A stretch of DNA of 64,000 nt. Source: Allacma fusca. Lineage: Eukaryota; Arthropoda; Collembola; Symphypleona; Sminthuridae. This document shows, one piece after another, positions 7,944-55,319 of the stretch. The first letter of the stretch is position 1; each line of letters begins with the position of its first letter. The translations under genes and the position numbers were made by a program. Where the stretch lies: positions 29,078,001 through 29,142,000 of the forward strand of contig OX359246.1 in NCBI GenBank assembly GCA_947179485.1, in the 5' to 3' direction. Below the pieces are notes generated by a model. That model was not told where the DNA came from. It saw nothing but the letters and a program-made list of their open reading frames with translations, and searched no databases.

Positions 7944-8816
7944 TAGGGTTTGTCGACTTTTAAATGCCAAGGCATAAATGGCAAATTTGGCAGGCATTTA
8001 GGGCATTTGTTCACATGGGCAAAAAATGCTTTTTTATGCTATTCTGGCAGAATTTGCATTTAATATTTTTTTCCTTGGCAAAGTTGGCATAAATTAACTA
8101 TGCTCATGGAACGCTCTATTTCCGCCATCATTAGTGCTTGCTCCGACCGTGGCTAACTTTAAAATAGGCTTTCAAACAAGCAAAAGAATGTGGGATCGTG
8201 GATTCGATAAACAATTACTTATTTGCAGACACTTTGTCAGATGTTAATAGCCTCAATGAAATTGATGAAGGCGACGAAAAAACCGACGATGAACTTGAAA
8301 CAATATTGATAAATGAGGAACCGTATTCTGATAGTGATTTAAAAAATTGTTAGATTGTGTTTACATATTTTTGGCGATAGTTTCGACTTAGACACAATAG
8401 TTCGCAAAAAGTGACAAATTGGATGAGTATTGTCGGTTAATATGATGTTAAATACTTGGATGTATACTAAAATTACAAATTGAAAACAAATAGACCAGCA
8501 TTCTCACATTTGTTTCTAATTTTCGATTTATAATGGTGGCCTTTTTGAAAGCATACTCATTGTTGATGAGTCTGCTGAACAGGTTTGACTTCTTCATGGC
8601 ACAATACTGCACCTCAACATGCCCCGCAAAAGATTTTTGGCGAGAAATTTTTTGTTGCCATAATTTTTGCCATTTTTGCCATGCATTTATTGCCTTTTTG
8701 CCCGGCATTTATTTTAAAGGGCAAGGCGAAGGCATAAATTGTTTTTTTGCCTTGCTACTGGCAAAAAATACCGGGCAGGCAAAATACCTAAGGCATTTAA
8801 AAATCGAAAAACCCTA
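7944..8816. mobile_element. hAT-like word-repeat element, 873 bp, perfect 8-bp target duplication
   Basis: The element is bounded by TAGGGTTTGTCGACTTTTAA on the left and the inverse of TAGGGTTTTTCGATTTTTAA on the right. The 8-bp sequence ACCACAAC directly flanks both ends (7936-7943 and 8817-8824). Both subterminal regions are built from the words GGCAAA, GGCATTT and their complements. The middle is different and contains a short acidic open frame. An 8-bp duplication is diagnostic of hAT and a few other DNA transposon groups; no intact transposase is seen, so it is non-autonomous. Confidence 0.8.
8210..8353 (+). pseudogene. Short acidic ORF remnant inside the 7944-8816 element
   Basis: 47 codons, rich in Asp and Glu (it includes EIDEGDEKTDDELE), end at a TAG. 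Codon use and composition differ from the word-repeat flanks, so it may be the last piece of a gene once carried by the element, or captured host sequence. No family is recognised. Confidence 0.3.
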
Positions 8817-8869
8817 ACCACAACAATGAAAATACCTGGCAAGGGTTACATGTCTACTAAGATTTAAAC

Positions 8870-8991
8870 AACCACTTATGCAGTACTGAATAGTAAATAT
8901 TTTTGAAGCCTTATAAGCAACCACAGTCCCAGACAAAGTCTCGATTTCACTTACACATATCTTAAGTAGTACTTTATAGTAGTCAGAATTT
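8870..8991 (-). repeat. Partial duplicate of the T2 3' end
   Basis: About 8895-8960 repeats the end of the T2 last exon in decayed form: GCAACCACAGTCCCAGAC resembles GCAACCTCAACCCCAGAC at 9003. It probably arose by local duplication of the stop-codon region. It has no open frame of its own. Confidence 0.5.
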
Positions 8992-10047
8992 TTAAGCTTT
9001 GTAAGCAACCTCAACCCCAGACGAAGCCTCCATCTCCCATTTGTGTATTCCAACAACCCAAATAAAGAAAACTTGAATGGCCGCTTCAATACAGCGAACG
9101 ATTATCGTTGACATTGGCATTCTCCACAGAGCTTGTGCCGCCAGAGGTCCGAATAATTCCGCCAAGGTCGTCAGCACAAAGATGACTAGTGAAATCTTAG
9201 CGAATATTATCCAGTAATTTAACTGCTTGGGGTTTTTCTGCAACAATTTAAAATTATAGTTGAAATTAAAACCCCAAATTTATTTGGCATAGGACACGAT
9301 CACTCCACAGTAACAAGTCAAAGCGGGCTCAATCCAAAGACTATGAAAAAAGAGGTCGTATTGTTATTTTTTTTAAACTTACGCTTTTGCATCCACGTAT
9401 TAGAACGCAGGCCATGATAATACTCAAGATGGCAAATATCATCCTTATCACGATTATCACCACAAAAATTGCAGCTGTAATGCGGAGCATTAAAGATAAA
9501 TTTTAGGACGCAAGTATATTTATGTACATATGTCCTGCAAACTAAAGTAAGTTCAACATTTGGGGTCAATTTTTTCGAAACGATCAATTTCGTTTGATAG
9601 CATCGGCTACGAAAAATTTAATTTTGTTTACCCATATGCATATGATATAAAGGGTGACTTACGAAGTCGTTCCGGTTCATCGGGAAAAACTAAAATCAAG
9701 TTTCTAAAGACCAAGATATTGACAATCTAAAGCATTCCGTTCAAAAAGAATTAGTACTTGTTAACATAATTACATATCTCTGGACGCAATTTTCATTCCA
9801 AACTGTACATTCATTCATAGATGTCAATCTGTTCGATAATGTCCCTGTCCAATATTTAATACTCTGTATTAGGAACAATCTTACAAATACACTCATTTAC
9901 TCAGGATTTTTTGTTTCTCTGGTCAGATTTAGCCTATTATTATATATTATAATAATTACTGTATTTAAATCAACTTACAATTTGAAGCCATCCAATAACC
10001 AAAGCCCATCCCTTGGCTCCACAGCAACAGATCTCGCGTTCCTCCAT
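8992..10047 (-). CDS. T2: small four-TM membrane protein, complete, 4 exons
   Basis: Exons, read on the - strand, are 10047-9979, 9726-9663, 9474-9383 and 9237-8992. They give 156 residues with consistent phases (0, 1, 0) and GT/AG borders. The protein starts MEEREICCCGAKGW. Hydrophobic segments lie at about 13-37, 46-70, 83-105 and 120-138, and the end is EASSGVEVAYKA. Four membrane passes with short loops and a Cys-rich N-terminus recall insect DUF4728-type proteins, but the family is not proven and the function is unknown. Exon 2 is eight codons shorter than in T1, an in-frame loss. T2 converges on IR2, and relics T3 and T4 likewise lie downstream of IR genes, so the pair has been copied together. 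Confidence 0.7.
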
Positions 10048-12650: not shown

Positions 12651-13039
12651 GATTGCGTTCTCTGGTTGTTAAAGGGAATTCTTCATTCTTATGGTAGGGT
12701 CAATTAGTTAGCATTTATTTTGGTTCTAATTATAAATAAATCTTCTTTTCGGCTAGTTACAAGTAGTCTTCACAATATATTTCTTTTTCCACGATTTATC
12801 CTTTGTCTCTTAATATTAATGTCAATAATGATCGAATGCTGTAATACCGCTTGTAACGCTTCTCTAAAACACTTGACACATATATGACCAAGTTCCAAAT
12901 TCATTACAGTGTCTTGACTGTACTCAAAGCTCAAGCGCTGAATTATGAGCTAAGCAAAACTTCACGGAATGGTACATAGGGCTTAATACTGCAAACAAAA
13001 TTGTCAAGATAGCTTCTTTCCTGATTTTGTGTTTCCATA

Positions 13040-13290
13040 AAAGTACCCAAATATTTCAGGTACTTTGAGATCGGCTGCACGTATTTCAATCACTCCTACC
13101 TGCACCTGGTGCAATCCACTCAAACAGGTATTCTTGGGTACACGTTCCTATACCCATACCTGTACTCAAATTTGCGGGTACGAATTCCTTGTGACCAGAA
13201 GGTATTCAAGATTTCTGGGTATTAAAACTATGTATCCATTTTGGACCGGAACGTGTACCCAAATATCCGGGCGCTACTTGTGTACATTAA
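13040..13290. repeat. Degenerate GTACC-word array
   Basis: Words such as CAGGTA, GGGTAC, ACCTGTAC and TACCC recur throughout. The composition matches the ends of the hAT-like element at 40775-42245, so this looks like a fragment of the same family. Matching inverted ends were not found. Confidence 0.5.
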
Positions 13291-19794: not shown

Positions 19795-22700
19795 ATGACT
19801 TCATTAAAAATGTGTTTCCTTATACTTACCTTCGGATTTCCGATAAAAAATTCCGCAAATTCATCTTTCGCAAGCATCCTCAACAACTTTAAATCCTTAA
19901 CTTTGAGACACTGCTCATACTTTGACATAGTGCTTTATGAGAGGAAACAAACATCTGCTTCCACCAGAATACACCATGACATTCATTTTTTAGTAAGCCC
20001 TTCAACGTCATTCACAATGGTTCGAAGGGATATGAAACGCAAAATAAGACTCCTTCCATTTAGATTCTTTCCACGCTGTACAACAATTATTTCAGAATTC
20101 GCCCTTAATGAAACCATGGATTCTAAAATGATTTCTAAAGTCCTAAAATTTGAAGGTTCACAGCGAACAACATTTTATGTCTTTCACTTCCACAACGCTG
20201 AAAAGCGCCATGACGAGTCAAACTCTTTCGCTAACTTTATTTCCTCTACCAAAAAATTTCTTCATGTGCTGATTCTTACAAGTGATTACTCTGAAAGTTT
20301 CCGAATGTTTACAGTCTCAGGTCAAGTAGACAAATACGCTATTGAAATCAAGGAATTTCAAAAACTAAGGGCGTTTTGGTTTGACGAGATATTGGATTTC
20401 GGAGGAGAAGATATGATCTGCATCCTTTGTCCTAGATGTACTGATGATGAGGAAGAACATAAACGGAAAAAAGATGTACCTTATAGTTCGAAGAAATTTC
20501 TTTTCGAAATTAGTGATTACCTCAACGCAACCCTGGTTTTAGAGCCGAGCCTCGTTATTGAAAAAGACAATTTCGCTAATGGTGAATGGGATGGTTTCAT
20601 GAGGCCGATGGTAGTTGGCTCTGCAGCCATCTCCAGTTTAATTAAATACACGCCAAAGCATCTCAAATATGTTTACATCACTGGTCTTTTTATTCACGGT
20701 TCCCAAATTCGCTTTATAACAGCTCTGCCGAAGAAGGCATCCTTCAATTCCCTTTCAAGATTTATTGAGCCTTTCAGCAGATTGGTTTGGGCCGGATTTA
20801 TTATTAGCTTCGTCGCTATGTTAAGTATCGTGCAATTTATCAATCACTATAGCTACTTTTCATACAATGGTGCTAGTTCAGAATTGTGCTTGGCATTCAA
20901 CTCAAAGACATATCTACATAAACAAACGTATTATCGCACAGCCTTAGCTCTGCTTAATCCACTTATTGATCAAAGTGCGTTTGCGTCTGTAAACTTCCGT
21001 AAACAATCCGCTCTGACTCAGCCCGCTTGGTGATGTCTTTTTGGTTTTTAGGCATCATTGCCATGGGTGCGATTATAAATGCAAAGTTATTTCAATAGTA
21101 GTCAAACCACTGTAAATTCAGCCACCAACCACATTCGAGGAGCTTGCATATTCGGACTATGAAATTGGTGCGGTTTTTTATAATATTGCAGTTCTACCAT
21201 GGCTAAGTAGATTAAACAATAGTGTGAGCAAAGCCCTTGCATCCAGAACGAAGGCCTACGATTTCCAAACGCCTGGCGTAAGAACTGATACTCACACTTA
21301 TTAGTACACGTGTTAGAATAATCAACTAATTGTAAGAAACAAGCCGCGTTGTGGCTTGAATGACTCTCTGGGCTTAATGTTTTAAATTGAATTGCTGGTA
21401 AAAAAAAGTACATAGTAGAGCTGGTAAAGAGTGTCAATGACATTGTGACTTAACTCCTTTCCAGCCGAACAAACCTAAACGTCTATGTCCGACATTATGA
21501 CAGGACCACCACAAGGATAACCCCCATGTGCATAGTTTTTTAAACAAAAGACCGTTAGTTTTAGTGGGCAAGGTTGGAGATGATTTCTGTTGGATGAGAA
21601 TTTTTTTACATTTTGTTCAGAAAATCTTGCGCGAAAATACATGCCAGATTGTTGACTCGGAATTCGAAATTTAGGATGACATTCAATTTGCCTGAACGAC
21701 ATTTAATGAGCTTTTAAATTATTTACTAATTACTGAGATACGACATCGCGAGCGAGTTATCGCAGTTTTTTGAAAATCACGAAGGTTCCCAAAACCGATA
21801 TTTTTAAAAGTTCCAACGCTCAACCAGAATGAATTTGAATTTTTTTAATGATTTTAAAAGCTTCATAAAGGACAGTGATTAGTTATGAGGGTAGGCAAGG
21901 TGTCAGATTATCTTTCTTGGAAAACTAAACATGATTGATGTTTTTGTAGGAAGCGTTTGGTAGGATACTTTTTATTTTATCACCATAATTTCGAAATTTA
22001 TTTCTAAACTTCATCCAAGAACAATTATAATTATAAGATTATATTAAAAGATTATAAGTCGATCTACTAGGACTATAATAACTATTATAATCCTGAGAGA
22101 TCGTCTGAGTCAGTTTTGAAGTATGAGAGTGAGTATTTAGACCAGGATTTTCACATGCCAGTTCAGATGATTTTATCTTGTAGAGCAAATAAATATCTTT
22201 AAAACGAGTATTAACGGTTAAGTTGAGACATCCTAATCAAAATTTATTGAAGGTTTTTAGCAGTCCCCAAACACCCATAAACTATTATTCAAAATTTGAA
22301 ACCCGGGTTACAGTCTAGAGTTACACAGAGTTTTGCTTTTTCCTAAAAATTATAAAGCAGCAGGAAAATTAAAAGTAAGCATCTCCAGGTTAACACGCTT
22401 ATTTGTTTAAACTAAGCATTGTGATTATATTTTTCAACAGTGCTATAAAGGAGTCGTGAAACGGGACATGGCATGCTTTGTCAGCGATCAACTAGTTAAC
22501 GTCATTGGTTTGAAGTTCATGACGGACATTTATGGTCAGAAGATGTTTATGTACTCCAAGGATTCATTTGATATTGGACCACTGGGAATAACTGTTAGCA
22601 AATATTTTCCTCGGCTTGCCGGTATATTTGTGTAACTACTGTGTCAATTAGTGTTTCTGAACGGTACGAAAACATGGACTCGACCCGACTCGTTTTCCCG

Positions 22701-23642
22701 AACCGAAAAAAATCCCAATTCTGTTCCCAAAACCGGAACCGATATTTTCGAGTCCGGGACATTTTTGGCTTCCCGGAACCGATCCGGAAAATAAAAGCGG
22801 TTCCCGAACCGGTTCCGGTTCCTTTCCGAACAGACAGAAAATGTATATGATTCATTTTTATGGAAGCCAAAATTGTGTCGCCTTTTCAAATGATAGTTGA
22901 CAAATGCTGACCAAATGCAAGTTTCGCGTTTTAATCCAAAACGGCAGCTTTAACAAACCATTCCCGAAAACTTTCGGTTTTGATTTTTGTACCCGAAACC
23001 GGACCGAAATTTGACGGTTCATAAACCGATGACCCGAAACCGGACCGAAATGTAACGGTTCTTTAAAACGTTGACCCGAAACCGGACCGGAACCGAAACC
23101 GAACCGGAACCTCGGGAATTCCCGATACCGAACAGAAACACTAGTCAATGACGACGCAAGAAAAACAAATTTGTGTTTTTTAATTATTCGCTACGATTTA
23201 ATTGAAGGATTTATCTTATGATTCATGGAATCATTTTAATTTTGCAGTGGCTTTCAATAAGCACGTTCAAATATTCAAAGATAATGGAATTTCTGATTAC
23301 TGGAATCGGAATCGCCAGGATCAGAATGAGCTTGAAGGTAAGCAATTCGCAAAGAAACGTGTCAAGAAGGAGAAATACTACGCCCAGAATACGAAAGAAG
23401 ATCTTTCAGTCCGAAAACCAATAAATTTAGCATTGCAGCTTTACATGTATGGTCTTGAAAGTGCCTCGGTGTGCTTTGTCCTAGAGAGAACGTATTTACT
23501 GATTTACACTTTACAAAAAGTTATATCGGTTGCAGTTCCACGGTTGAAAAAATGTATTTTGTATTTTTGGGCGTACTTGAAAGTATTACAATGTAGTTCT
23601 TTTACAAAAATATTCTCCAGAATATTCAGCAGGTTTAAATAA
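19795..23642 (+). pseudogene. IR4: ionotropic-receptor pseudogene, complete exon set
   Basis: Exons are 19795-21277, 22441-22621 and 23248-23642; splice sites and phases are kept. Against IR3, exon 1 loses one base near 21005 and two more near 21065, so the frame is lost through TM2 and then regained. A further TAA (near 21113) replaces the Tyr codon of the PLYIQPP motif. N-terminal, S1 and TM1 parts are clean (MTSLKMCFLIL signal peptide, WDGFMRPMVVGSAA), and exons 2 and 3 are open. Intron 1 is long (1,163 bp) and intron 2 holds a 495-bp transposon-like insertion, unlike the introns of 100-200 bp in its relatives. This is a recently disabled receptor. Confidence 0.85.
22649..23143. mobile_element. 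Word-repeat DNA element in IR4 intron 2, 495 bp
   Basis: The ends TAGTGTTTCTGAACGGTA and, inverted, TAGTGTTTCTGTTCGGTA form terminal inverted repeats. GTCAAT flanks both sides (22643-22648 and 23144-23149). The body is a degenerate array of CCGGAACCG and ACCGAAA words, in one orientation on the left and the other on the right. No coding capacity. The flank of 6 bp rather than 8 leaves the superfamily open; hAT is the likeliest by comparison with its neighbours. Confidence 0.7.
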
Positions 23643-28117: not shown

Positions 28118-28564
28118 GATATTGTACTTGATTCTGGATTTATACATATAATAGCAATCATTTAAGAAATAAAAGTGAACTTGAGGATTCTTAATACTAT
28201 TAACTGGAAGAAGCGGCAAGTCTCATTGTAGAATCTAAAATCTCACCTCTGAAGCACTGGCGATAACTTATATATTCACTTTCTATGTTTCCATCTCTCT
28301 AAATATCTATTATGTATATCTATGTATGTATGATTATTCCCAGTCCATATACTCTAATTCGAATGTATACAAATATGGCCAGACATTGCAGACGTATTTG
28401 CTATAAACTGACATGTTACCAGAGAAAAGACCGGGATAGTGCATGCTCGCCCAGTAATCTCGTATAGCCAGTGTACATTCTAAAATATGTGCATATTAAT
28501 TATGTTAGCAAATACTTACTATTAAGATGCTATGAAGTTACTTGTAGTAACTAACTCTGTTTTT
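28118..28564. other. IR5 3' flank, no gene recognised
   Basis: AT-rich sequence after IR5, repeated almost unchanged at 34490-34936 as part of the tandem duplication. No open frame of note. Confidence 0.4.
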
Positions 28565-34025: not shown

Positions 34026-34043
34026 ACAATTTTTTGATTCCAG

Positions 34044-34489: not shown

Positions 34490-34936
34490 GATATTGTACT
34501 TGATTCTGGATTTATACATATAATAGCAATCATTTAAGAAATAAAAGTGAACTTGAGGATTCTTAATACTATTAACTGGAAGAAGCGGCAAGTCTCATTG
34601 TAGAATCTAAAATCTCACCTCTGAAGCACTGGCGATAACTTATATATTCACTTTCTATGTTTCCATCTCTCTAAATATCTATTATGTATATCTATGTATG
34701 TATGATTATTCCCAGTCCATATACTCTAATTCGAATGTATACAAATATGGCCAGACATTGCAGACGTATTTGCTATAAACTGACATGTTACCAGAGAAAA
34801 GACCGGGATAGTGCATGCTCGCCCAGTAATCTCGTATAGCCAGTGTACATTCTAAAATATGTGCATATTAATTATGTTAGCAAATACTTACTATTAAGAT
34901 GCTATAAAGTTACTTGTAGTAACTAACTCTGTTTTT

Positions 34937-35452
34937 AGGGGCGACGTAGACGACGCCCCTAGTAAGATGATCGATGTTCGTCCGTACGTCCGTACGTCCA
35001 TTCCCACGATAACTCAAAAATAAGTTGATCAGTTCCGTCGAAAGTTTTTGTCGACATCACGTATGTCAACAGGTGGTCTGAGTTTTTAATTGGTTGAAAT
35101 CGATTGGATAGTTTTGGAGAAACAAATTCTTGAAATTTCCAAATTTCAATTACATCACGGTGGTTTCAAGCACTACAATGTGCAACCCGATTTCGATGAA
35201 ATTTTTCCTGGACATTACTTATGTCAACATGTAACCTTGGTTCGTATTTTGTTGATATCGGTTGGATAGTTTCTGAGAAAAAATTCTTGAAATTTCGAAG
35301 TTTCAATTAAATTACGGTTATTTCAAGCACTACTGGACCGCTTTCAATGAATTTTTTTTATTCTCAATCCGAACTCAACAAATATTATGCACATCACCTC
35401 CACCTTATTACCAAATCGGGTTTACCTCGGAGGAGCGTCTACGTCGTCCCTT
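34937..35452. mobile_element. MITE-like element with GACGTAGACG ends, copy 2
   Basis: Tandem-duplicate copy of 28565-29080, offset 6,372 bp, with only a few substitutions (for example CTGCAACC to GTGCAACC). Confidence 0.5.
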
Positions 35453-36129
35453 CGCGCAAGCAGTAAATTATCTTTTCTTCACGCGGAAGTTGCGTGTAAC
35501 TTCTGGACCATCGACAATAAACAGGGATTAGCAAGTTGTTGCATTTAGCATTGCAGTTAGCTCTACATGTAATTGCATAGATTTATTGGAAAAGCAAAAT
35601 CAATAATCTTGTTGCACAAAATACACTCTCAAGTTGTACCACTGCAAGCATCCGTTGAGACAGACTGGTGGGGAATGAACCTTGTGAATTTATGAGGCAG
35701 TTACAAGAATTTCGCATTAATGAATGCTGAAATCACAAAATTAATCTCGGAACTCTTGTTTGTATTATATTTCAAAGTTCATGTGTATAATATTTATTAA
35801 CTTGATCCCTTATTTCAGCTTTTACAGAACTGACAGTATGTATCTAAACATTATAATAAAATATCAAAACACATTTAACAATATCAATCATTCGTAGTTT
35901 TCGATTACATCTTCCATGTGAAATTAGCATAAAACATAAAAAGGGAGCATTGAAACTAGACGTATAATTATATTAACATTCTACTACTCCTAAACAAGTG
36001 TATTTCACATTTACTAAGAGAGACAACGTAAAATTAAATATCTAAAAGAATTAAGAGTGGTGATCAAAATTTCACAAAAAAATTTCTAAAAAATTCGTAC
36101 GTAATTACAGCAGTTGCTCAAAAATTATC

Positions 36130-36202
36130 CTAAACTTTGTAGGTAATCGTAACTCCCGTCGAAGCTTCAATTTCTACCTTGTGGATTCCGACAACCCATA
36201 TA
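36130..36202 (-). pseudogene. T3 relic, second tandem copy
   Basis: Duplicate of 29757-29829; one substitution changes GIHKAEIE to GIHKVEIE. It again abuts the 3' end of the LINE. Confidence 0.8.
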
Positions 36203-38540
36203 GATAGATAGATTTATTAAAGGTCGATTTGGCCTTAGCCCTTACAACCCGCTTATTATCGCATTAATTACAAAAAATCGAATAGCTTTAATTAGAGTAA
36301 ATGAATTGTGAATTGTTTAAGGAAGTAGAATATATTGAAAAACATTACTAAGTGTTGTGGTGTAGGTGAAAAAGGTTCCCTGCTATAACAACGGCCGTCA
36401 AAAACCTACACGTCTTTCTCCATTACACTTCATTATTGTACTACTTATTCATCAAGTACCAGATAGGACATTGTAGATAATTATTTATAGATTACGGGTA
36501 TATCAGATGTATTAGCTGCGAGAGAATATACAAGTACATTTAAAGTGGTTTACAAATATATTAGTGCCTCCAGGTCGTGAGTTATTGTTATACGTGTTTC
36601 AGCCCGCCAACAGCCCCAGCCTTACGACATCCCTGCTTATTTGTCTGGTACCCGCCCATGAGGTTGTTACCATTTGTCGAAGGCTATTGATGGGCTGCTA
36701 CCCGTACACTTCCTTTCGGCTTACATGTTTTGTACCAATCTCATGGGTGGGTGCAACTGTACTTCGAATGTGTTTCTAATACCTTCCCAGCTTCAAGTAC
36801 CATTTCTTATTTTTATTGCGTCCTTCCAGAATAGATAGGCTCGTTTTGTTCGGCTCTGGTCATCTTCTGTTTGTAGGAAATATTGGATAAAGTCGTGTTG
36901 TCTTAGCTTATTGGCTTCAGGGATATGCTTTGCTCTGATGTCTTCGTAAACTTCACATTCGCACATTATGTGGTAGCGGTCTTCTGCATTTTTAAGGCAC
37001 GCACATAATGCGTCGATCGGTCCGCTTTTTGGTTTCCACCGGTAGGTCATAGCTTTTAGATTAATGTTTCTGCATTGAACATTTATTCTTGGTTTGTCTA
37101 ATCTGAGATTTTGTATGAATTTCGTAAGCGCCCAGCTGTGTCCCTGTCCGTAAAAATCTTCCCTCCAAACGTGGGTTTTTAATCCGATGTACCGGCTGCT
37201 CTCAGTCTGCAACATGTCTTCTACATCTGTGTTTGTAGAATGGAGATCTATCTTTCTCCATAAACTGTCGCAGTTTTTTTTCAAGTATTCCCTTGTGAAT
37301 TTGTTGAAATCCTCTTCGAGTTTAATTGATTTAAATAATGTCCTCCACTGAGATCTGTTATTCGTGTCTCCCTCGATTGCTTCCAGCAGCCTGTAGCACT
37401 TTGAAGCCATAACAGTTGCATTTTCTGAGAAGATAGAGTTGTACATTGTTGTTATAATGCTTTTCGCGATTAATGCTCGCATTGATTTACTGGACGCAGG
37501 ACGTATCCAGGAGTGAGATTGCAGGCTCCAGTAATTCTTCGTAAAAATTTAGTCTGTATCTTTTCCATTTCATCTACAAACTCCATTCCCCAAATCGGGA
37601 ATCCGTAGAGTGGGATTGTTGTTACTAAAGAGTTGAAGAGTCTCATGATGATTTCTATATCGTTCAGTTTGGTTGACCTAGTAGTGTTTAAAAGTAACTC
37701 GACTGCAGCGTTGGTCTTCAAAAGGGTTTGTTTGAGGTGGTAGTGGAATTTTCCGTTTCGATGAAACTCCACTCCTAAATATCTGTAGCTACTTGCTATT
37801 TCTATAACATTTCCATTGTAGTAGAATTCCATTGGCATAACTTTGTTTTTCTTTGTTGGTACTGGTCCTTTTCCAAAAATCACCACCTTAGTTTTTTCCA
37901 GGTTTATGTTGAGATCGTTTCTGCTGAAGAATGTGCTGAGAATTCCGATCTGGGTTTGGAGGTCTGCGGGAGAGTCTGCTGTTAATACGATGTCGTCCGC
38001 GTAAATTAGAATGGTAACTTCAGTGGTAAGCAGTTTCGCACCTCGTACTTTGGATTTGACAAGCAATTCTGTGATTTCATCAATACATATAGAGAATAAC
38101 GTCGGACTCAGTGTTTCCCCCTGCAGTACTCCATTAAGTACGTCCATGAAATTTGTATATCCCCCTGATGTTTGGATTTTTGCCTTTGCTTGATTGTATA
38201 TTTCTTGTATCTTTAGAAGAATGTAGGCAGGTACTCCCAGCGTTTCTAACCTATCCCATAGACGTTTCCTCTTAATGGAATCAAATGCCTTTGACAGGTC
38301 TACGAATAAGCAGTACAACTTCTTCTGGTTTGCCAGCGCATTCTGTATTAGAGTGTTTAATACAAACAAGTGGTCTGAACAGCTTCTATGCTTTCTGTAT
38401 GCTGCTTGGGATTCTGATAACACCTTATGTTTTTTGATCCATGTGTGCAGTCGCTTTGACAGGAGCATCGTAAATAGCTTTACTATTGTGTTGACTAAAG
38501 AAATTGGTCTGTAGTTACAAGGTGAGTTTTTGTCGCCCTT
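36203..38540 (-). mobile_element. LINE copy 2, truncated within the reverse transcriptase
   Basis: It matches 29830-32168. It keeps the C-terminal Cys/His region (37482-36793) and most of the RT (palm motifs FVDLSKAFDSI and YADDIVL) but ends at 38540, just after the NYRPISLVN region. No endonuclease or ORF1. The same RT/C-terminal frame break as copy 1 is present. Confidence 0.85.
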
Positions 38541-38762
38541 CGTATATAACGTTTATTAACGGAGGTGAGCACGTAAGTGCCCACCTCGTGGAATGTTCCA
38601 GACATTATTTTAACCAATGGAAATGTAACAAATAAAGGTACCTAATGTATTTTACAGGGGTTATTGTACCTTAGCCTGACATATATGTACATCAATGTTA
38701 CAATATGGTATACTTTAGCTTACAATCATTTCTACAGCCAATAATGGCTTAACAGCAAATAA
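38541..38762. other. Junction between the tandem duplication and IR6
   Basis: About 220 bp that matches neither neighbour. It includes an imperfect hairpin around GGAGGTGAGCACGTAAGTGCCCACC (arms GGTGAGCAC and GTGCCCACC). No gene is seen. Confidence 0.35.
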
Positions 38763-39975
38763 CACTGGTCTTCTCATTCACAGTTCCAAAATTCACTTTG
38801 TGACAGCTTTGCCAAAGAAGGCCTCCTTTAATACCCTTTTGAAATTTATCGAACCCTTCAACAATTTGGTATGGGCCGGATGTTTTGTCAGCTTCTTCGC
38901 CATGTTCATCATCGTACTATTTGTAAATCACTTTAGCTATAACGGATATAATATCGCTGCCTCAGGTTTGAATGCGGCCATATATCCAAAGAAATGGAAC
39001 AAATATGTACATTATCACACTTCCTTAGCTCTGCTCAATCCAGTTATTGATCAAAGTGCATTTGCGTCTACAAATTTTTCTAAAACCATCCGCTTTGACT
39101 CAATTCGTTTTGTGATGACTATCTGGTTTTTAGCTCTTATTATTATTGTTTCTGCGTACAAATGCAAAGTAATTTCTATAGTTGTCAAACCACTGTACAT
39201 TCAGCCACCATCCACATTTGAGGAGCTTGCAAACTCACAATGAAATTGGTGCTGTTTTATACACCGCCACGGTTTTTCCCTTGCTAAGTCGATTGAACAA
39301 CAGTGTTAGCAAAGCCATTTTATCCAGGACGACGGCGTACGGTTTCTACATATCTTATTGGTTTAAAGTTTCTAACGGACATCTACGGTCAAAAGATGTT
39401 TATGAATTCCGAAGATTCGCTTGATCCTGGACCCCTGGGGATAGGGGTTAGCAAATATTTTCCACAGTAAGCCGGTATATTGGTTTAACTGCTTTTTGCT
39501 TTCGTTTTTACATTTATCTGTATTTGAATGTGGTCTTTGCAAGCACTCACTAAAACTGAAGTGATTAGTATGATTTATGGATTACGTTTTTTTTGCAGTT
39601 GAGCTCGGTAAGTACGTCCAGATGTTGAAGAATGCCGGGATTCCTGAACACTGGAGTCGAAAACACCATAAGCAGAACGAGCTTGCTGGTAAGCGTTTTG
39701 CGAAGAGTCAAGTCAAGACCGATGAATACTATGCTGGGAATACTAAAGAAAATATTTCAGTCCGAATGTCAGTAAATTTAGCATTGCAGCTTTTTAAGTA
39801 TGGTCTCGCAAGCGGCTTGGAGTGCTTTGTTCTAGAAAAAGTTACAGACAATTTTTATTTACTGATGTACTTTAAAAAAATAAGTCGTTTGGGGTTCCAC
39901 GCATTAATAAATGTCTTGTTCAGCTGGGCGTGTCTTAAGTTATTACAATACAGGGTTGGAAATATATTCAGGTGA
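38763..39975 (+). pseudogene. IR6: 5'-truncated ionotropic-receptor pseudogene
   Basis: Homology starts in S1 (GLLIHSSKIHFVTALPKK) and continues through TM1 (LVWAGCFVSFFAMFIIVL), LLNPVIDQSAF, TM2 and IQPPSTFEELANS. A 2-nt loss at about 39238 shifts the frame. Further on, exon 1 is fused directly to the middle of exon 2 (IGLKFLTDIYGQKMF), so intron 1 and the exon 2 start are deleted. Exon 2 ends with a TAA before its donor. Exon 3 (39599-39975) is open, with AGIPEHW and a TM3. About 290 N-terminal residues are missing, removed at the junction with the tandem block. Confidence 0.85.
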
Positions 39976-40766
39976 CCTGTTCGATTGAATTAAAGGTAAT
40001 AGGAAAATTGTATTGCCATCGTTTATAAAATCTTCAATAAGTTTGACTTAAATAAATGATTTTTTTTGCAATAACTTAACTTGAAAATACTCCAAAGAAA
40101 AACATTAATCCATGGGTATGCTGCAAAATAATGTGCATGTACTATTAATATATTAATGAGTTGAGCAAATCCGTTATTGGGTGAGTTATAAACGTGGTTT
40201 TATTTTTTAAACGAGATTTTGTGCCCGACTTCATGTTTTAAGTAATTGTAAACACCCAAAGGATGACATTCCTCGATATTTAGGGGTCAGGGACTGGCAG
40301 ACTGCAACAATTAACTCCATACATAATTTTATAGGATTACACTTAAAGCCATCCGTTTGAACGATTGCCAGACTCACGATTGTTACAAACCACAACTTCT
40401 TTAGAAAAGATAGCCACCATTAATCTGGTCATCCTATTTCCATACTACTTTAAAGTTCGTGTATAGAACACCTGTTAACTTGAAAACTAATGTGAACTTT
40501 CGCATATGGACAGTAACTATACTTATATTTTATGATAAAATATCAAAATACAACAACAATCCAATACTTGAGATGACATATCAAAATAAGATTAAACGCC
40601 TAATGGAATCAATAAAACTTGTAATTAAGTGCATATTTACAAATTAGTTGAATTTAGTACTTCCCAAGAAGTGTGAATTTCACAATAACAACTATAACTG
40701 TGACAAGCAATATGCAATGTACTTTGTAAAAATCACATGAAGATTTGAACAATCTATAAGTATATA
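39976..40766. other. IR6 3' flank, no gene recognised
   Basis: AT-rich. Only short chance open frames. Ends at the target duplication of the next transposon. Confidence 0.35.
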
Positions 40767-40774: not shown

Positions 40775-42245
40775 CAGTGCATCACATGGGTACAAAAATG
40801 GTTTACCTGGACCTGGTCCCAAATAGTGGGTACTCGTACCTAAACCCGTACCTGATTATAAATACCCATTAAGTAAATGTTGGTACCTGGACCTGAATGT
40901 TATTTACGTAGTGCGTACCTGTACCTGAATTTTACCCGTACCCAAAATGCACCTAGAATATGGACCTGTACCTGAAACATTTCTCTGCGTACCTGTACTC
41001 AATCAGGTACTTAAAAAAGAATTACTTTAAATGATTATTATGTCTCATCATATTTATTTAAATGTTTTTGAAACCAGAAATCATAGCAATTATAACTGAG
41101 ATCCAATTCTGCCTCCAGTCATTGTTTTTGTAATACTAGACATATTAATGGAACTAAAATCTGCAGATTTCAACAAATGTCGTGGCTTCAAACAAAAGCA
41201 TTTCCTGATTGTATCACCATTCATTGAAATTCGCTTTAGCGTTAAAAAATGAGAACCGTATGAAAATGTTCTTTCTATCAGAACACACCTTATTTATAAT
41301 CGAACCCATATCTTTGGTTTACGCGGTTAATCTTTATTAAACAAGCTAAATTATATGCAAGCTTTCGACATCTAACAGACTGTCATCCTCAGGCACTAAA
41401 AAGCATGTGACAGATACAGTAAAACCTGTATATAATGGCCGTTCATATAATGGATTCCTGTTAATAGTGGACACATTTTAATTTTCAGCGCCATCTCCTA
41501 TCCTTTAACATAGGAAAATCCCTTCATATAATAGTTTTCTATATAGTGGAAACCAACTCATAGTGGACTAATGATCATACCCCTTCAGTTAAAAATGCAG
41601 CTTGAGGACCTGTATATAGTGGTCAACCGAACGAAGGGATACAAATCGCACGAACCCAAACCAATACCACAGCTGCTTGAGGTTAACTCAATTAAAGGCA
41701 TTTGTTTTAAGTATTTTCAGTGGTTTCGTGTTGTATGTATGTATATCTATGTACTACATCCATGTACTGAATGACAAGTAAAATTGGAATTCCACGTACT
41801 TATTGCTGGCACGTTGTGCTAAGAAGATGATCAAACATCTCTATTGCATAAACGTATCTATGCTTTTTGAAAAGTTACGATGTTCTTCTGAAAATAGACT
41901 GTATAGCGAAAGCAACCTTTAGGTCGGAGAGAGCCACAGATTAAACTACATGTCTAGTAATACGGATTGGATTTGTGTACGTACAAGTACCCACATTTTC
42001 AGGTACTAATTTATCATGTCCAGGTATATTGATAGCTTGTACGTGGCCCTGTCAGGTACAGCCCAAAAAATAAAAATCTGTACCTGTACCCAACACCATA
42101 ATTTGTACCCGAAATTTGGGTACATATAGCTTGTACCCATAAAGTACCCATTCAGTTTGGGTACTTCAATAGCGTACCCTTTTCTACCTGGACCTGTTCC
42201 TGTACCCAAATACTCAGGTACTACTCGTACCCATGCGATGCACTG
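40775..42245. mobile_element. hAT-like word-repeat element, 1,471 bp, perfect 8-bp target duplication
   Basis: The ends CAGTGCATCACATGGGTAC and, inverted, CAGTGCATCGCATGGGTAC are 19-bp inverted repeats with one mismatch. GTGTATAG flanks both sides (40767-40774 and 42246-42253); its T at position 2 and A at position 7 fit the usual hAT target pattern. About 200-250 bp at each end is a degenerate array of GGTACCTGTACC words, oppositely oriented. The middle is non-repetitive and holds a Tigger-like end at 41417. No transposase is seen. Confidence 0.85.
41417..41640. mobile_element. Tigger/pogo-like terminal segment nested in the hAT-like element
   Basis: A TA is followed by CAGTAAAACCTGTATATAAT and then repeated TATAATGG / TATAGTGG words, as in Tigger/pogo ends. 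The opposite end was not found, so this is a fragment or a degraded copy. Confidence 0.4.
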
Positions 42246-43026: not shown

Positions 43027-43800
43027 GGCATAGATGCACATCCTCATGAGGACAGAGTGCAGCACTCGCACTCACCTCGCACTCAAAGTATTAACGAGTT
43101 GACTTTGAGGACGAGCGCATGTTATTACAAACGTGCACTCATAATCATGAGTGCGAGTACATACAAAAGATTTGTTTATTAATGAGTGGGAGGACGAGAA
43201 CACAAAAGTATAAATTCATTTAAAAAAAATACAATACTCTGCACTGTGGTGTAAAAAATGCGATAAAATACTTGGTTGTATATTATTATGTCGTATATAC
43301 AATTTTGTACAACTACGTAAAATAGAAACGAAACAAAATCGTTCATTGAGTATGATTGAAAATAGCATACATTTATATTTCAATCATAATATTCGTGTGC
43401 CAATCTGATTTTTTCAAAAATGAGTGGGAACAATGAAAGCAAAAAGGGGAAAAACTATTTTTAAAACCACGGAGACTTGTTCAACTAAAAGCAATCTAGG
43501 CTTAAATGGTCTGCAATTGAAAATATTCTGTGTTGAGTACCGTTATTTTTGCATCGCTAAACTAAACCTTTACAAATAACAATTTGCAGCATTTAACCTT
43601 TATCGTCTTTGTAACCATTGCAAGCATGTGTTATTTACTCGTGTGTGTTAATCATTTGAAACTGATCATTGTCTGTTCGTACAAATATTTCAACTTGAAA
43701 AATCATTTTGGAATTGATGCATGTAGTTTCATTTGATGATTACCATAATGAAATTACATGTAAAAATAAATAGGGGAAAAAATTATTTGCATGCATTGCA

Positions 43801-44006
43801 GTCAGGATTGCATACATATATTGCATTGGATAAGTCAGGATTGCATACATATATTGCATTGGATAAGTCAGGATTGCATACATATATTGCATTGGATAAG
43901 TCAGGATTGCATACATATATTACATTGGATATGTCAGGATTGCATACATATATTGCATTGGATAAGTCAGGATTGCATACATATATTGTATTGGATAAGT
44001 CAGGAT

Positions 44007-44009
<3 letters not shown>
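43801..44009. repeat. 33-bp minisatellite, about 6.3 units
   Basis: Units start at 43801, 43834, 43867, 43900, 43933, 43966 and 43999 (partial), each GTCAGGATTGCATACATATA plus TTGCATTGGATAA with few changes. The unit is a multiple of three with no stop in several frames, which explains the repetitive open frames on both strands; these are not genes. Confidence 0.95.

Positions 44010-44073
<64 letters not shown>
44010..44073. repeat. (TA)n microsatellite, about 64 bp
   Basis: A pure TA run follows directly from the CATATATA part of the last minisatellite unit, probably grown out of it by slippage. Confidence 0.95.
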
Positions 44074-44075
<2 letters not shown>

Positions 44076-44285
44076 AATGCACTGCGAGAATTGGCACGAA
44101 TTACTGCGAGTGCGAGGATCAAATTCTAGTAATTTGTCTTCATTAGGACGAGTGTGACTACAGACTTGACATTGCTTAACATATCATTGTCAGGATGAGT
44201 GCAGTTCATTCAATTAGTACTGAGTGCGAGTGGAGTGCGAGAGAAAATGTGCATGTATGCCCTAAAGTCTAAAATACATTTAATG

Positions 44286-44598
44286 CAGTGCTGCGATCGG
44301 GTCAAGTAATTTAAAAACTTGACCATGAACTTGACTTGACCACGAAACTTCAAGTAATTTTCAAGACACAACCTGAACTTGATAACTCGCGTTACTGTAA
44401 TTACTTGACTTGGGGTTCCAGTACATTTGTCTTACTTGCACTTGAACCTAACTTGTCTTAGAATGTCATGGTCAAGCCGGGTACGTACTTAAACTTGACC
44501 TGAATGATTCAAGTAAAACACTTGGCTTACTTGAACTTGACCCAAACTTGAACTTGACTTGAAAATTTAAGTATTACTTGAACTTGTCCGCAGCACTG
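44286..44598. mobile_element. hAT-like word-repeat element, 313 bp
   Basis: The ends CAGTGCTGCG are inverted repeats. Flanks are ATTTAATG (44278-44285) and ATTTAGTG (44599-44606), a 7/8 match. The whole body is a degenerate array of ACTTGAACTTGAC / TCAAGT words. No coding capacity. Confidence 0.75.
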
Positions 44599-44739
44599 AT
44601 TTAGTGTATGTTGTAAAATTAAAAGAGTAATAACATAAGCTATATGTATTCAGAAACACTGAAAATACCTACAGAAGTTTCCAACGTACGGGCATGATGG
44701 CGTACAACTCATAAAAATGACGCAATTCTCAACGTATCC

Positions 44740-45476
44740 AAACACGCAGGTACAATGGTCGGGGTACGAGTTAGTGACCCCAATATACCCGTACCCGGTG
44801 GGTATATACCCGTTTTGAAATCCTTGTACCCATACGTAGTGGTCGGACTAGTTCAGTTCAAAACTGAAAATTTCAGTTCAGTTCAGTTTGGTTCATGCAA
44901 ATTTTGGTTCAGTTTGATATGCAAACTAAACTCAACGGTTCGGTTCCAATGTAAAATTTCACTGAACTGAATTGAATCGTTGTGATTGTTACGCAAGCAC
45001 AATAAAGCCTGTTTGTCATGACGCACTTTTTTTTTGACGGTAACGTTTTAAGGAATATCTATGTAAAATGCGATTGCATTTGCATTGCTAGAACAGTACT
45101 AGCTTGAACATATTTAAAATCAGATTAAAGTGGGATACAAAGAACTGTGTACCCGTTAATTCAAAAATCTGTATATATACACATTATCGATTCAGTTCAG
45201 TTCATAGAAGAAACTGAACTGAACCGAAGAATAGCTGACAGAAATTAAATTTTGATTTTCGATTCACTTCACTGTGTGAACCGAACTAAACTGAATTTTA
45301 CGAACTAAACTGAACTAGTCCGACCACTACCCTAACCCGTACCCGGAATTTTTAGCCGACCAAAGTGTGCCCAGGTAGTACCCGAAATTGATCGGGTACA
45401 CAAAATCGATACCCGAGTAGTCATACCCGTACCCGTTTACCCGAGTATTACCCATACCCGGGCCGAGCACTGCATA
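44740..45476. repeat. ACCCGTACCCG word array, split by a nested element
   Basis: Degenerate ACCCGTACCCG and GGGTAC words at about 44757-44836 continue at 45330-45470 and end at GGCCGAGCACTG. The inverted right end, CAGTGCTCGGCCCGGGTA, has only a weak left counterpart (CAATGGTCGGGGTACG, 44754). The array is interrupted at 44837 by another element. Confidence 0.6.
44837..45329. mobile_element. Word-repeat DNA element nested in the array, 493 bp
   Basis: Perfect 22-bp inverted ends begin TAGTGGTCGGACTAGTTCAG. Both subterminal parts are arrays of GTTCAGTTCAG / CTGAACTGAA words in opposite orientation; the middle is ordinary AT-rich DNA. Flanks CCCATACG and CCCTAACC agree at only 5 of 8 positions, but they lie inside a degenerate array. 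Confidence 0.8.
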
Positions 45477-46469
45477 CACCGTTACTCAACTGAAAAACAT
45501 TTCTCTGGCCGGCCCGCAGGTAAGCATTCTATTCCCTTCAGTGTACATTAAGTACATACTGATACTCTTCAATTAATTGTAAACTAATTATTGGTTTTTC
45601 AGCCGTAATCACTTTGAAATTTAAAGCTCTGATTTTGTGACTTGTGTTGAATGATCATGGAAGGGAGGTAACGCATGAGAGGAATTTAAATATTTTGAAG
45701 GCTGAAGGAAGGATTACAGTTGGATTTAAATGAAGGAAGTGTAAGTATTGAGAAGGCTTTATTTTACTGAACGATGAAGGAACATGTAATTGGAAACGGT
45801 TCCCCTTCTGAAGGATGGACGAATGTGATTTCAAATGAGCACCTCTGTTCCCTAACGAAACGGGTATAAAATACGTTCTCTGATATTCGTGAAAACTACA
45901 TTCTCCTGTTAAATGGAAATCTTTTTTATTTTAGATATATAAACATAATTGTAGGCATACGTCCTGATTTAGGACACAAATATTATGGACACCAAAGGTG
46001 TCCAAATGACTCACTCTATCGTATATCCTTCCTATTTAAAACATTTGAACCAAGCCTACGTATAAGCCTGCATTATAACATGAAAAGGTGAGCCTTTACT
46101 ACATCCTTCCTATATCGGGATCACCAGGCCCACATAGCCTACATTTGATTGATAAATTAGATCAACAAATTTACACCCTTCCTACATCTTATAACGTTTT
46201 CGATGCTGACAGACTATTTAAGGGCATTCTACACTAATAAATTTAAAATGTCTCAAGTCGATCTAATCGGAGTAAAATAGGACCGAATGCTACTACGGAT
46301 TTGCCAACGTAAGGGGCACTGGTAAAAATTATAAAATCGTAAATTACAATCAATTAACCGACAGGTCAATGAGCGAAGCCATTGGCATCGTATGCATTTA
46401 ACTTGAGTATAAATGTAAATGAATTTTGCATAATGTTGTCGCATCGCAATTATTTGCTTATGAGCGAAT

Positions 46470-51540: not shown

Positions 51541-51740
51541 CATTTTCAAATATAATATTTTAAAATACGTATTTTCAGACCACAAAGTATTTTGTATCTG
51601 AAAGTTGGCAAGTATTTGGCAAGTATTTTGTACTTAGTATTTTAAGAGCCAGTAAGTACAAAAGTATTTGGTATTTACTTACTCTCAATGACATATGAAG
51701 TGTATTTCAAATAAAGTATTTACATCAAAATACTTTTCAC
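51541..51740. repeat. Degenerate AAGTATTTTG word array
   Basis: Words AAGTATTT, AAATACTT and TATTTTGTA recur throughout. It resembles the other word-repeat elements; no clear inverted ends were identified. Confidence 0.5.
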
Positions 51741-52282: not shown

Positions 52283-52440
52283 CGAGGTGGGGCCCAGAAG
52301 CGGGATTTTTGATTCGCGCTGGCCCGAACCCGACTCGGCCGGTTTTGGCCGGGTTTGGCCTATAAATACGAACTTACGTTGGGCTCCGACCGGGTTCGGG
52401 CTGCAATAAAACAATGAAACCGGGTTAAGATCGCCCTTGG
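52283..52440. repeat. Degenerate CCGGGTTCGGGC word array (B1 copy)
   Basis: CCCGAACCCGAC, GGCCGGGTTTGG and CCGGGTTCGGGC words in both orientations, strikingly GC-rich against the background. The B2 copy is at about 63555-63700. Confidence 0.6.
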
Positions 52441-52740
52441 GCCTGAATTTATTCATCTCCAAATTTGCTTTGCTTATGATAGTGTCGTGCATTGGAAATT
52501 GAGAACTAACTTGTGATTCCCGTATTTGCGTACTTATTCGTGTTATACCTGAAGCTGAACAACCCTTATTACCCTTACACCAAGATTGCGGATATGCGTG
52601 TATCTTTTAAAGGGCTTTGGTGAAATTCTCGCTAAAGCGAATACATTTTATAGTGAAATGTTTAAACTACCGGGAACTTGTAGCTGGAAGATACTGAAGG
52701 TTTTATAGTTATAAGTCACGGAGGAAAATAAAAGCAGGCA

Positions 52741-55319
52741 GGATAGCAGTTGTGTAAATCAAAAAAAGTTATCCTGTTTAATCACAATTGAAACTGTTTG
52801 ACAGAGTTGAGAAAATGTGCTAGTAAAAATAGAGCAAACGATAAGTGCATCTATTCCTTCCGGTGGTTGGAATATACATGTTATTATATTGTTTTCCCTC
52901 TTTTCCGCGGGAAATTGAAACAACGGGAGTTACTCCATCCTAAAATGGTAACTGCCCCTTGTGTATTCTAATAGATTTTGAACCTCTCTATGCAAATAAG
53001 GTTAATGTCGACGTATCTCAGCTGTCATTCGTAAAAATTGTCTTATTAAATTCACTCTTTGCAAGTGTTCTAAATGTTTTATTTGTACATGTACTCTGAA
53101 TTTTTCCCTCATTTCCTCAGAAATTCCTAAGAATAGCATTCCACAAAGTCAATTCCTACTCTTGATTTTTAACATTCATTAAGTCATGGAGTAATATAGG
53201 TTTCTAAGAAATGTACTCAGTAAGAAATGCAAATGTTTCCAATATACCCCTTGGTGCTTGAACTAATTATTACTGAACCCGTCAAACGTAGATTGAAATG
53301 GAACTAAACTTGTATGGTGAAGTCTCCTTAACGTTGTGAGGTTTAAGATAACTGTTCTCAAATAGTGGTGGGAATCAAGATTTGTTTTGATGCACTTTCA
53401 AGGGGGTCGTCCTAATATTACTTTGAACAGATTGTAAGTAACATAAGTAATTTTCCTGAAATACGCAATATTCTTAGTAAGATTGAACTATAGTCTCTTA
53501 CTTATTTCAGTATGACATTATGGTTTATGTTTTGGTTCTTGCCAAACGTGTCACAAACAGAAGTAATATTCTGTGTCTCGGTATTAAAAGAAAAGATTGA
53601 CTTTTAATGTCAATTTCCTTCCTTTTACCCCATAGAATTACAATTATAACTCTGTAATTTCTGCCTCATATTAATGGTCATTACAATGTCCTTTCCTTAG
53701 TTACGAATGAAATCGTACCTCTCCGTATCGTTCTCACTACCTCAGTTTATTGCTTTTGGTAGGGGAAATACAAACAATCACTGGCTCATATGAGCATGGT
53801 ATTTTCCAACCGGATAATTTTTATTTTCGCGCTTTTTTGTTGTAGCCCACAAGCATAACCCAGTGTATGAACAATCACTTAGTTTTGTTTGTTGTGACTA
53901 GTACGGAACAAACAAAATTTTGCGTCGCGAGGAGGCAGTGTTTACGCAAATTTTATACGTAACATATTGATTCATGTCCTAATGTCGTTGTGAGGCCGAC
54001 CCTAGTGTTATGTCGTTTCATAATTTTCTTTATTGGATTGTTATATAGAATCCTTTTAATTGATTTTCTTAGTTTATACATTTTTGGGTTTTATTATTTT
54101 GGTTTACTTTTTATTGTTGTTTATTTTACTGCAGTAACGAGCCTTCCCTCATCATATTACTCGATAATAGTTGTCCTAGGTGGATATATTCTTATCTAAT
54201 CGCTTGTCTAACTTTGGACGAGATCAGTCTCTAAATATTGTAAAACACTTAGCAGTATTGAAACCCAAAACTGGGGTCCTCTGTCAATACTTCCCTTTGT
54301 AGGATTGGGAAGGTAATATCCTCACGGAAGGATATTATTGCTGTTGTGGCGTCGCTGACTCGATCTTTAGTCAAAGCTTGCTTCCATTTTCACCAGACCT
54401 CGGCAAAAAATCGTCAAGTGGGTTCATCATACCGTAAGATCAACAGATGCAATTGATCCTTCCACACGAACTAATTCATAATGAGGATTCAAAATATTTT
54501 CTCTTAAATCTTTCGGGACTATTTCATTTCCGGTGATATGTGTTAATCTGTAAAGTAGTTTCATGAAATCATGAATGGTCCACAAAATCTATCAATATTG
54601 ATTGATATTCTTTAGGGGCTAGCTGATTAGTTTATCTATCCAAGTGATATAATTTGGTGGCTCCAGGGTGTCCTGAATCTTGTATGAAATTAATAGTGAT
54701 CATATTTCCATGTTTACATACTAATCTCAATCTTTCATAGAATCGAACACATTTCATTCGATCTAAATCGTTTCCAACACTTAGTTCGTCGGCATTCCCT
54801 AGGCATGCCAAGGAAGGCATCCCAGTCAGGAAAGCAGTTGGGCCAACGCTGGCGTGTTGTCGTTGGCCAACCGTCGGTAATGGCCATCGGCCGAACGTTG
54901 GTCCATATTTGGCTCCACGTTGCTGCCAGCGTTAGTCCGATCTCTTTTCACACCGTATCCGCCACTTCTTCAACCCCATTGTAAAATGAAGGGTTGACTC
55001 AATTTTCGCTAAAAACGTATGCAGTACTACCAACGTTGTTCAGGTAAATTTTTATTCAATCAAGGTATCGACATGTACTCATCAAATCCAATTTTGCAAG
55101 GCAACAAATAACACTTCAATTCTAAAAGTATATAATTTCGAAGACAAATGGGATACTTTAGAGATACCCACCGTAGAGCTCTCACACGGAAATCCTGAAA
55201 CGCTACACTTACCCCTAAAGTTTCTTCCAGCATATAGACTTATAGATTAGTTTTGTTAGAACGCTTGGACACGATAACAAACACATCTCCAACATTAGAT
55301 AAACCGCAATTATTAGCTT
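52741..55319. other. Gene-poor region
   Basis: AT-rich; short open frames such as 53990-54199 (Phe- and Ile-rich) look like chance. About 54820-54930 is a GC-richer array of GTTGGCCAACG words. Nothing else is recognised. Confidence 0.4.
54820..54930. repeat. GTTGGCCAACG palindromic word array
   Basis: The words TTGGGCCAACG, TTGGCCAACCG, TGGCCATCGGCCGAACG and ACGTTGGTCC follow one another. Each is near-palindromic. No inverted ends were identified. Confidence 0.5.

Follow-up and report, generated by a model that had tools for sequence, protein, structure and literature searches.

The hAT transposon Herves of Anopheles gambiae carries CG/AATTCAT and its variants repeated in both subterminal regions, where these repeats are reported to be sufficient for transposase binding, and the Herves authors state that such binding regions vary in sequence between hAT elements (PMC3143072). 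According to the account given for Hermes of Musca domestica, BED fingers bind subterminal AAG(T/C) repeats, 17 and 14 per end and clustered near the tips, and ~220 bp of each end are required in cells (PMC10368747). The fish hAT Tgf2 is described with subterminal repeats in 17 and 18 copies at its ends (PMC4890040, PMC10368747). Protein-binding microarrays of hAT and CGG-binding proteins yielded, for four hAT proteins, motifs with matches in the subterminal region of the protein's own element, and the reported specificities differ between related proteins (PMC8097297). The Ac transposase binds subterminal AAACGG. That hAT subterminal sites vary between elements is already a published principle. 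Here we analyze a stretch of 64,000 nucleotides from the springtail Allacma fusca (contig OX359246.1, positions 29,078,001 to 29,142,000 of the forward strand; hereafter the window) that holds many loci built from degenerate repeats of one short word, with a different word at each. We conclude that these loci are very probably for the most part non-autonomous hAT transposons, and that each word is the predicted binding site of the lineage's transposase and differs by lineage. What is new is the density of different words within a single genome, together with a letter change that runs through a whole array while the tip is identical.

The springtail elements can be set beside the described systems on several points. 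Herves, as reported, is one element with one word, whereas the springtail genome holds many lineages, among them relatives that share a tip and carry an altered word. The Hermes words as described are sparser than those of the springtail and are oriented asymmetrically at the two ends. The microarray study measured proteins, whereas the springtail data concern how arrays of sites evolve in a single genome. In the Tol2 end as reported (PMC4890040, PMC10368747), the palindrome AAGTACTT directly after the tip has the letters of the motif core that we fitted at 51541. SIMPLEHAT of Arabidopsis is a simple-repeat hAT. Its printed probe, when reversed, reads TAGGGGTGTCAAAATGGGTAACCCA, that is, a TAGGG tip, ~13 bp and a palindrome-like word, as in the springtail layout (PMC3189211); SIMPLEHAT is a plant family, and the likeness is that of the probe sequence alone.

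Word Arrays and Element Ends in the Window

An earlier note on the window had listed 11 word loci. These and a further one at 43029 made up 12 segments, in each of which the best 7-mer (at most one mismatch, both strands) was compared with 100 dinucleotide shuffles. All 100 shuffles were beaten by ten of the 12 segments, namely nine of the 11 listed loci and the 43029 array; in the control, 4 of 131 segments rose above the maximum of their own 20 shuffles. The two loci that failed were dropped from the class: the GGGACA score at 23745 was matched by 10 of 100 shuffles and the CCGGGTTCGGGC score at 52283 by 4 of 100. The CCGGGTTCGGGC stretch and its flanks are present twice in the window (from 52206 and from 63470 on; 96-98% identity), and since the flanks are duplicated along with it, it is part of a longer repeat. 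The earlier note had also called the words often near-palindromic. This held at 40775 and 51541 only, where the motif is palindromic beyond all 25 shuffles; most elements do not exceed their shuffles in this respect, and palindromy was discarded as a general property of the words.

hAT elements have short terminal inverted repeats (TIRs) and tips of the C/T-A-G type. The tips of E1, E2, E4, E6 and E8 (Table 1) are CAGTG, TAGTG or TAGGG; the E5 tip, CATAG, departs from this consensus, though a relative of E5 encodes a hAT transposase. The inverted ends that had been proposed could be defined for the loci at 7944, 22649, 40775, 44286, 44747 (left end decayed) and 44837; examination of the window for TIRs and target-site duplications (TSDs) located no ends for 23745, 51541, 52283 and 54820. 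Two perfect 8-bp TSDs had been claimed, and they are those of E1 and E4. Likewise, the CAGTGC starts reported before are those at 40775 and 44286, and the right end at 45472 has these letters too. E2 is flanked on both sides by the 6-bp direct repeat gtcaat; in aligned introns of paralogous gene copies the E2 insertion is missing and the flanking sequence is single. A blind scan of the window for TIRs with TSDs gave 13 matches, just 3 of them word elements, so the scan alone is unspecific.

The distribution of words within elements does not bear out the proposal that a word makes up the whole body of an element and was amplified until it filled it. In E1, E2, E4, E5 and E8, the exact words end ~125-260 bp from each tip and leave 158 to 982 bp in the middle free of words, and elements that bear a transposase have the same layout. 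The words are limited to the end arms; thus the elements were not filled by amplification, and the short ones are arms minus the middle. In five of eight profiled elements, the distance from the tip to the nearest exact word is 14 to 27 nt; it is larger at 22649 (52 nt), 44747 (40) and 51541 (45). Tandem Repeats Finder reported short tandem stretches in some arms only (for example, a 41-bp unit at 22991-23089 in E2), and no array was covered throughout. The fragment at 13040 is colinear with the right arm of E4, with an alignment score of 119 against a mean of 39.7 and a maximum of 72 for 500 word-block shuffles. This score exceeds that of every shuffle, which argues for homology to E4 beyond the shared words, and the fragment is, as judged from this alignment, an old copy of one E4-family arm.

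Table 1. Word elements, arrays and related features in the window, with matched TIR positions and TSD positions as found there
Feature	Positions	Strand	Tips	Word	Arms (bp)	TIR	TSD	Remarks
E1	7944..8816	.	TAGGGTTT	GGCAAA/GGCATTT	139/151	18/20	ACCACAAC, 8/8	hAT deletion derivative
Remnant open reading frame in E1	8167..8353	+						61 residues; C-terminus of E1 hAT transposase
E4-family fragment	13030..13290	+						decayed; right arm, by alignment
E2	22649..23143	.	TAGTGTTTCTG	AACCGG/CCGGAACCG	172/171	16/20	2/8 (strict 8-bp)	inside gene copy
E4	40775..42245	.	CAGTGCATC	GTACC[CT]	236/259	18/20	GTGTATAG, 8/8	
E5	43029..44259	.	CATAGATGCACAT	GAGTGCGA	126/152		5/8	array beats 100/100 shuffles; unlisted in earlier note
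E6	44286..44598	.	CAGTGCTGCG	ACTTGAAC	both arms meet	14/20	7/8	
E7	44747..45472	.	CAGTGCTCGG (right)	TACCCG		6/20	6/8	left end decayed; array beats 100/100 shuffles; interrupted by E8
E8	44837..45329	.	TAGTGGTCGGACTAGTTCAG	GTTCAGTT	135/139	20/20	5/8	nested in E7
E12	45660..45847	.	CAGAGGTGCTCATTTG (right)	GAAGG				left end not found; unlisted in earlier note
Array	51541..51740	.		AAGTATTTTG				no ends found; beats 100/100 shuffles
Array	54820..54930	.		GTTGGCCAACG				no ends found; best 7-mer 5 copies, shuffle maximum 4

The E12 array has nine copies of GAAGG/CCTTC in 151 bp, against a window average of ~0.3 per 200 bp, and its right tip is hAT-like. Words and tips (CAGAGATG) resembling those of E12 were found 3' of the hAT transposase domains at two loci elsewhere in the genome (L008 and L040). 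Four word-bearing insertions (E5, E6, E7 and the nested E8) and the GAAGG array are crowded into the 2.8 kb from 43029 to 45847, perhaps a tolerant site or the result of an insertion preference. At 43800-44073, the middle of E5 contains a 33-bp minisatellite in 6.7 copies followed by (AT)32, and the word-free middle of E4 contains a nested stretch (41420-41630) that resembles pogo/Tigger ends.

Genome-Wide Copies of the Window Elements

Genome-wide searches used the 392.7-Mb assembly, in which the window lies on a chromosome-scale contig. Tips of E1, E4, E6 and E8 were counted with 2-3 mismatches allowed, and the identical pattern read backwards served as the control. The E4 tip gave 601+599 end copies (1200; control 1+0), the E6 tip 474+478 (952; control 0), the E8 tip 377+387 (764; control 1+0), and the E1 tip 136+124 (260; control 0). 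Perfect 8-bp TSDs flank seven of eight fetched E8-family copies, the remaining one being mis-paired, and two of two fetched copies in both the E1 and the E4 family. Thus, the check that the earlier note had suggested, for copies elsewhere with shared ends and TSDs, came out in favor of mobile elements. An E4-family copy at L063 is 942 bp long with a TSD of 8/8; the one long copy fetched, L062, holds a nested retroelement instead of a transposase. The exact end patterns were absent from the viral and prokaryote contigs searched, no confirmed match to the hAT C-terminal consensus was found in the viral contigs, and a search of the prokaryote contigs with an alignment of five hAT C-terminal consensus sequences also gave no confirmed match.

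These counts bear on the possibility that the words are common satellite DNA or simple-sequence tracts located near transposons by chance. The two arrays that did not exceed their shuffles, the two that lack ends (51541 and 54820), and the true tandem units in some arms, such as that at 22991, would fit satellites. Against this, arrays halt at tips flanked by TSDs, the mirrored arms are nearly equal in length with no fixed period, and tip and word are common to hundreds of copies. The earlier note had considered satellites unlinked to any transposase; the ends and word of E1 were found to enclose a hAT transposase, as described below. We regard satellites as extremely improbable: they are already contradicted for E1, E4, E6 and E8 and could persist just for loci without ends.

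Words Follow the Transposase Lineage

Do copies with the same ends encode a transposase? For E1 they do. Full copies at L060 (3348 bp, TSD CTCAGGGG) and L061 (4127 bp, TSD GCCATGTC) have E1 tips and GGCAAA arms with the transposase between them in several open reading frames. The remnant frame of E1 in the window is identical at 53 of 58 positions to the last 58 residues of the L061 transposase, the C-terminal piece of which scores 37.7 bits against PF05699 (cut-off 21.4). E5 is connected to a transposase through a relative at L032+L049, which has the first 12 tip bases of E5, the related words GAGGGCGAG and GAGCGTGAG, a TSD (ATCATCGT, 8/8) and a dimerisation region scoring 59.9 bits. Transposase-bearing copies with the same ends, which the earlier note had suggested seeking, thus exist for the E1 family and, via this relative, for E5.

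Scored matches to the hAT dimerisation region number at least 150 in this genome, among 860 candidates, and we examined 40 transposase loci: twelve of 10 kb, eight of 3.2 kb and twenty 3' flanks of 1.4 kb. The 10-kb loci (L017-L028) were chosen for long open frames, which biases them to younger copies; eight of the twelve yield two-ended elements, and in L020 and L024 the clade A word (see below) lies 3' of the domain. Among the 3.2-kb loci (L001-L008), clear arrays are present at L004, L005 and L008, and L001 and L006, above shuffles by one, were not counted. Twelve of the twenty 1.4-kb flanks (L029-L048) surpass their shuffles by two or more (L030, L032, L033, L035, L039, L041, L042, L043, L044, L045, L046 and L048), the L045 array being AT-rich and doubtful, and L029 and L040 exceed them by one. 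At L030 an E6 arm points away from the adjacent transposase and was excluded as a pairing; the neighboring arrays at L033 and L043 proved on inspection to belong to nested short elements and were likewise not counted as transposase arms.

Altogether, 12 two-ended transposase-bearing elements were available, ten with TSDs of 8/8 and two (L018 and the L050 element) with 7/8, and in the eight whose arms were tested all arms beat 40 of 40 shuffles. Clade A (L019, L021 and L026; proteins 52-57% identical) has the word CGGATA, clade B (L018 and L025; 51% identical) ATAACG, and clade C (L022, L023 and L028; 54-63% identical) TTGTTG, TTGTTC and TTGTAC, respectively; the three clades are ~19-24% identical to one another. 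The E1 family (L060 and L061) has GGCAAA and the L033+L050 element TAGGAAGG; the E5 relative at L032+L049 completes the set. An element's own word is frequent in its arms and almost missing from its middle, and foreign words are nearly absent, in a table of 17 elements and 12 words whose words were picked from these very elements and whose large values fall on the diagonal. Similarity of arm 6-mers among the 12 two-ended elements is 0.36-0.99 within clades, with a mean raised by the near-identical copies L060 and L061, and between clades it averages 0.104 with a maximum of 0.269. None of 10000 label shuffles reaches the observed arm similarity. The claims that words differ between lineages and that arm word content pairs with transposase clade are both supported by these comparisons, and the data support the assignment of the window loci to hAT-type elements with words that follow transposase lineage.

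Several of these loci show nesting. At L043+L051, a hAT copy contains an inserted short element, which has TAGGARTGGGACTG tips, GGTCTGG/GGAACAG words and a TSD of 8/8 (ATGTACAG); the sister copy L033 retains the empty site. At L033+L050, the hAT itself is enclosed by a short element whose tips are E8-like and whose word is AATTGAATCG. The element at L046+L052 (1692 bp; TSD ATTAATAC, 8/8; CARTGCTCTCA tips; both arms with the words AGTAAGTA) encloses just the 3' part of a hAT transposase.

Word Change under One Tip

The members of clade C share a 12-bp tip (TAGTGCTGTAAT), exact in five of six ends and with a single mismatch in the sixth, and differ in their words. The L023 and L028 arms can be aligned along their length (176 of 254 and 147 of 234 positions identical). 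The L023 arms contain 12 exact TGTTC sites, 11 of them alignable without gaps, and in L028 the fourth letter of these is changed at 8 of 11 (seven to A, giving TGTAC), as against 2 of 44 for the other four letters (Fisher p = 5.4e-6). In the reverse reading, which takes the 12 TGTAC sites of L028 as its start, differences fall at the fourth letter in 11 of 12 sites (seven exact swaps) and at the other letters in 7 of 48 (p = 9.7e-7). These tests count sites as independent, and the comparison gives no direction of change. L022 is too diverged for reading site by site; between L022 and L028, word columns are slightly better conserved than others (p = 0.023).

The recognition helix of the BED finger reads TNLKD in L022, TNLKN in L023 and TNLKK in L028, with a single variable residue. 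Hermes is reported to contact its own site via S66, N67 and R70 (PMC10368747), and the variable clade C residue falls, in an alignment by eye, at the R70 position. Dispersed sites in both arms moved in the same way, so this would be a specificity switch followed array-wide. We consider it possible, and put it forward tentatively, that binding specificity switched across the whole site array while the tip stayed fixed, and that lineages split by one-letter rewrites of the word together with one finger residue. If true, mutually blind transposase families would arise inside one genome. In the open-licence library searched, we found no description of such a change of one letter across an array whose tip is identical.

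Selection on the Words and Competing Explanations

Word conservation was compared with a neutral simulation (uniform substitutions, small indels and one observed arm as the ancestor, with an aligner that favors matching words). For L019/L026 of clade A, identity is 0.89 in word columns and 0.54 in others, a difference reached in 0 of 60 neutral runs at matched identity; for L018/L025 of clade B the values are 0.91 and 0.59, reached in 2 of 60 runs; for L019/L021 of clade A they are 0.77 and 0.55, reached in 10 of 60. Intact word cells number 311, 111 and 261 in these pairs against simulated means of 72, 31 and 64, respectively. These comparisons lend moderate support to selection on the words, graded so because the simulation is simple and the aligner favors word matches.

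Slippage, or template switching during gap repair after excision, could spread words with no selection for binding, from seeds that differ between lineages. Cut-and-paste transposition leaves gaps that copying repairs, a general feature that would favor such spreading, and short tandem units do occur inside arms. The excess of exact word cells in L019/L026 stands against it, yet the L019/L021 and L018/L025 differences were reached by neutral runs; the site-by-site swaps in the aligned clade C arms also argue against wholesale re-amplification. As a full explanation we consider slippage or gap repair unlikely, and it may be a contributing mechanism.

A further alternative is that the words serve some other host or element role, as transcription-factor sites, in heterochromatin or in DNA structure, and track lineages by descent only. 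The lack of excess conservation in the words of the fossil E4-family copy would fit such a role, and the clade C word difference could be drift in a low-complexity arm. On the other side, in most window elements the mirrored arms come to within ~14-27 bp of the tips, as in hATs with proven subterminal binding, word content follows transposase clade, and change is concentrated on one word position. We judge this alternative quite improbable, more so than slippage.

The most likely explanation, on our analysis, is that the word is a subterminal site bound by the transposase of its own lineage, which agrees with what has been measured for Herves, Hermes, Ac and other hATs. In clade C, BED matches occur together with the hAT dimerisation region, which also speaks for it. 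A number of results weigh against it. The L019/L021 difference is among them, as is the comparison of the E4 right arm with the 13040 fragment, in which the word-spacer difference was reached by 66-507 of 1000 neutral simulations under four settings. In the L022/L023 comparison, the word columns show no better conservation than the rest (p = 0.43). Two of the 10-kb loci, L017 and L027, have no convincing array (the best count of L027 is slightly above shuffles), and an array is absent from 6 of the 20 1.4-kb 3' flanks within the DNA fetched. No transposase-bearing copy of E2, E4, E6, E7 or E8 was present among the matches listed (at most 100 places per tip). Finally, the BED matches in L023 (17.9 bits) and L028 (17.7) fall below the Pfam cut-off (20.6), which that in L022 (28.2) exceeds, and for the E1 transposase and the E5 relative Pfam reported no BED finger in the N-terminal piece.

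How might subterminal binding by the lineage's own transposase operate? The element plan runs from an 8-bp TSD through a tip of ~10-12 bp conserved in the lineage, a word arm of ~125-260 bp and a middle to a mirrored arm and tip; the middle encodes the transposase or has been lost. The word would probably be read by an N-terminal BED zinc finger, and the tip would be cut by the catalytic core. Through several DNA-binding domains, the transposase would grip the word arrays of both arms, gather the ends and cut the tips, and short elements that retain arms and tips would be mobilised by the enzyme of their own lineage. Joint change of protein and site would yield different words and keep each transposase on its own elements. 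If the word carries much of the specificity, such a joint change would separate a lineage from its sisters. We infer that the BED finger is the reader of the word and that orthogonality is the benefit.

The joint change in specificity of a DNA-binding enzyme and dozens of dispersed sites is an old question in the evolution of both transposons and transcription factors. The A. fusca genome shows many hAT lineages together, each with a readable word and with non-autonomous derivatives in hundreds, and in at least one clade the tip has been constant while the word changed. In addition, word and tip together offer a practical label with which orphan short elements can be assigned to the transposase that mobilises them.

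Other Features of the Window

The window also contains a tandem ionotropic-receptor-like gene family (PF00060 matches are weak, below the Pfam cut-off) and a non-LTR retrotransposon. The stretches 28200-34490 and 34600-40700 are a recent tandem duplication with an offset of ~6372 and ~99% identity (29694 compared with the 36067 stretch), which takes in the non-LTR retrotransposon and a receptor exon. A second near-identical duplication, at 47273 and 61495 (offset 14222), is 99% identical over 300 bases. Another element, at 6912-7700, has inverted ends ATATTACGTTT.../ATATTACGTTT and near-identical palindromic flanks, GTGCGCAC and GTGCACAC. Finally, the stretch 28562-29085 and its duplicate have inverted GGCGACGTAGACG/GGGACGACGTAGACG ends and are possibly another DNA transposon.

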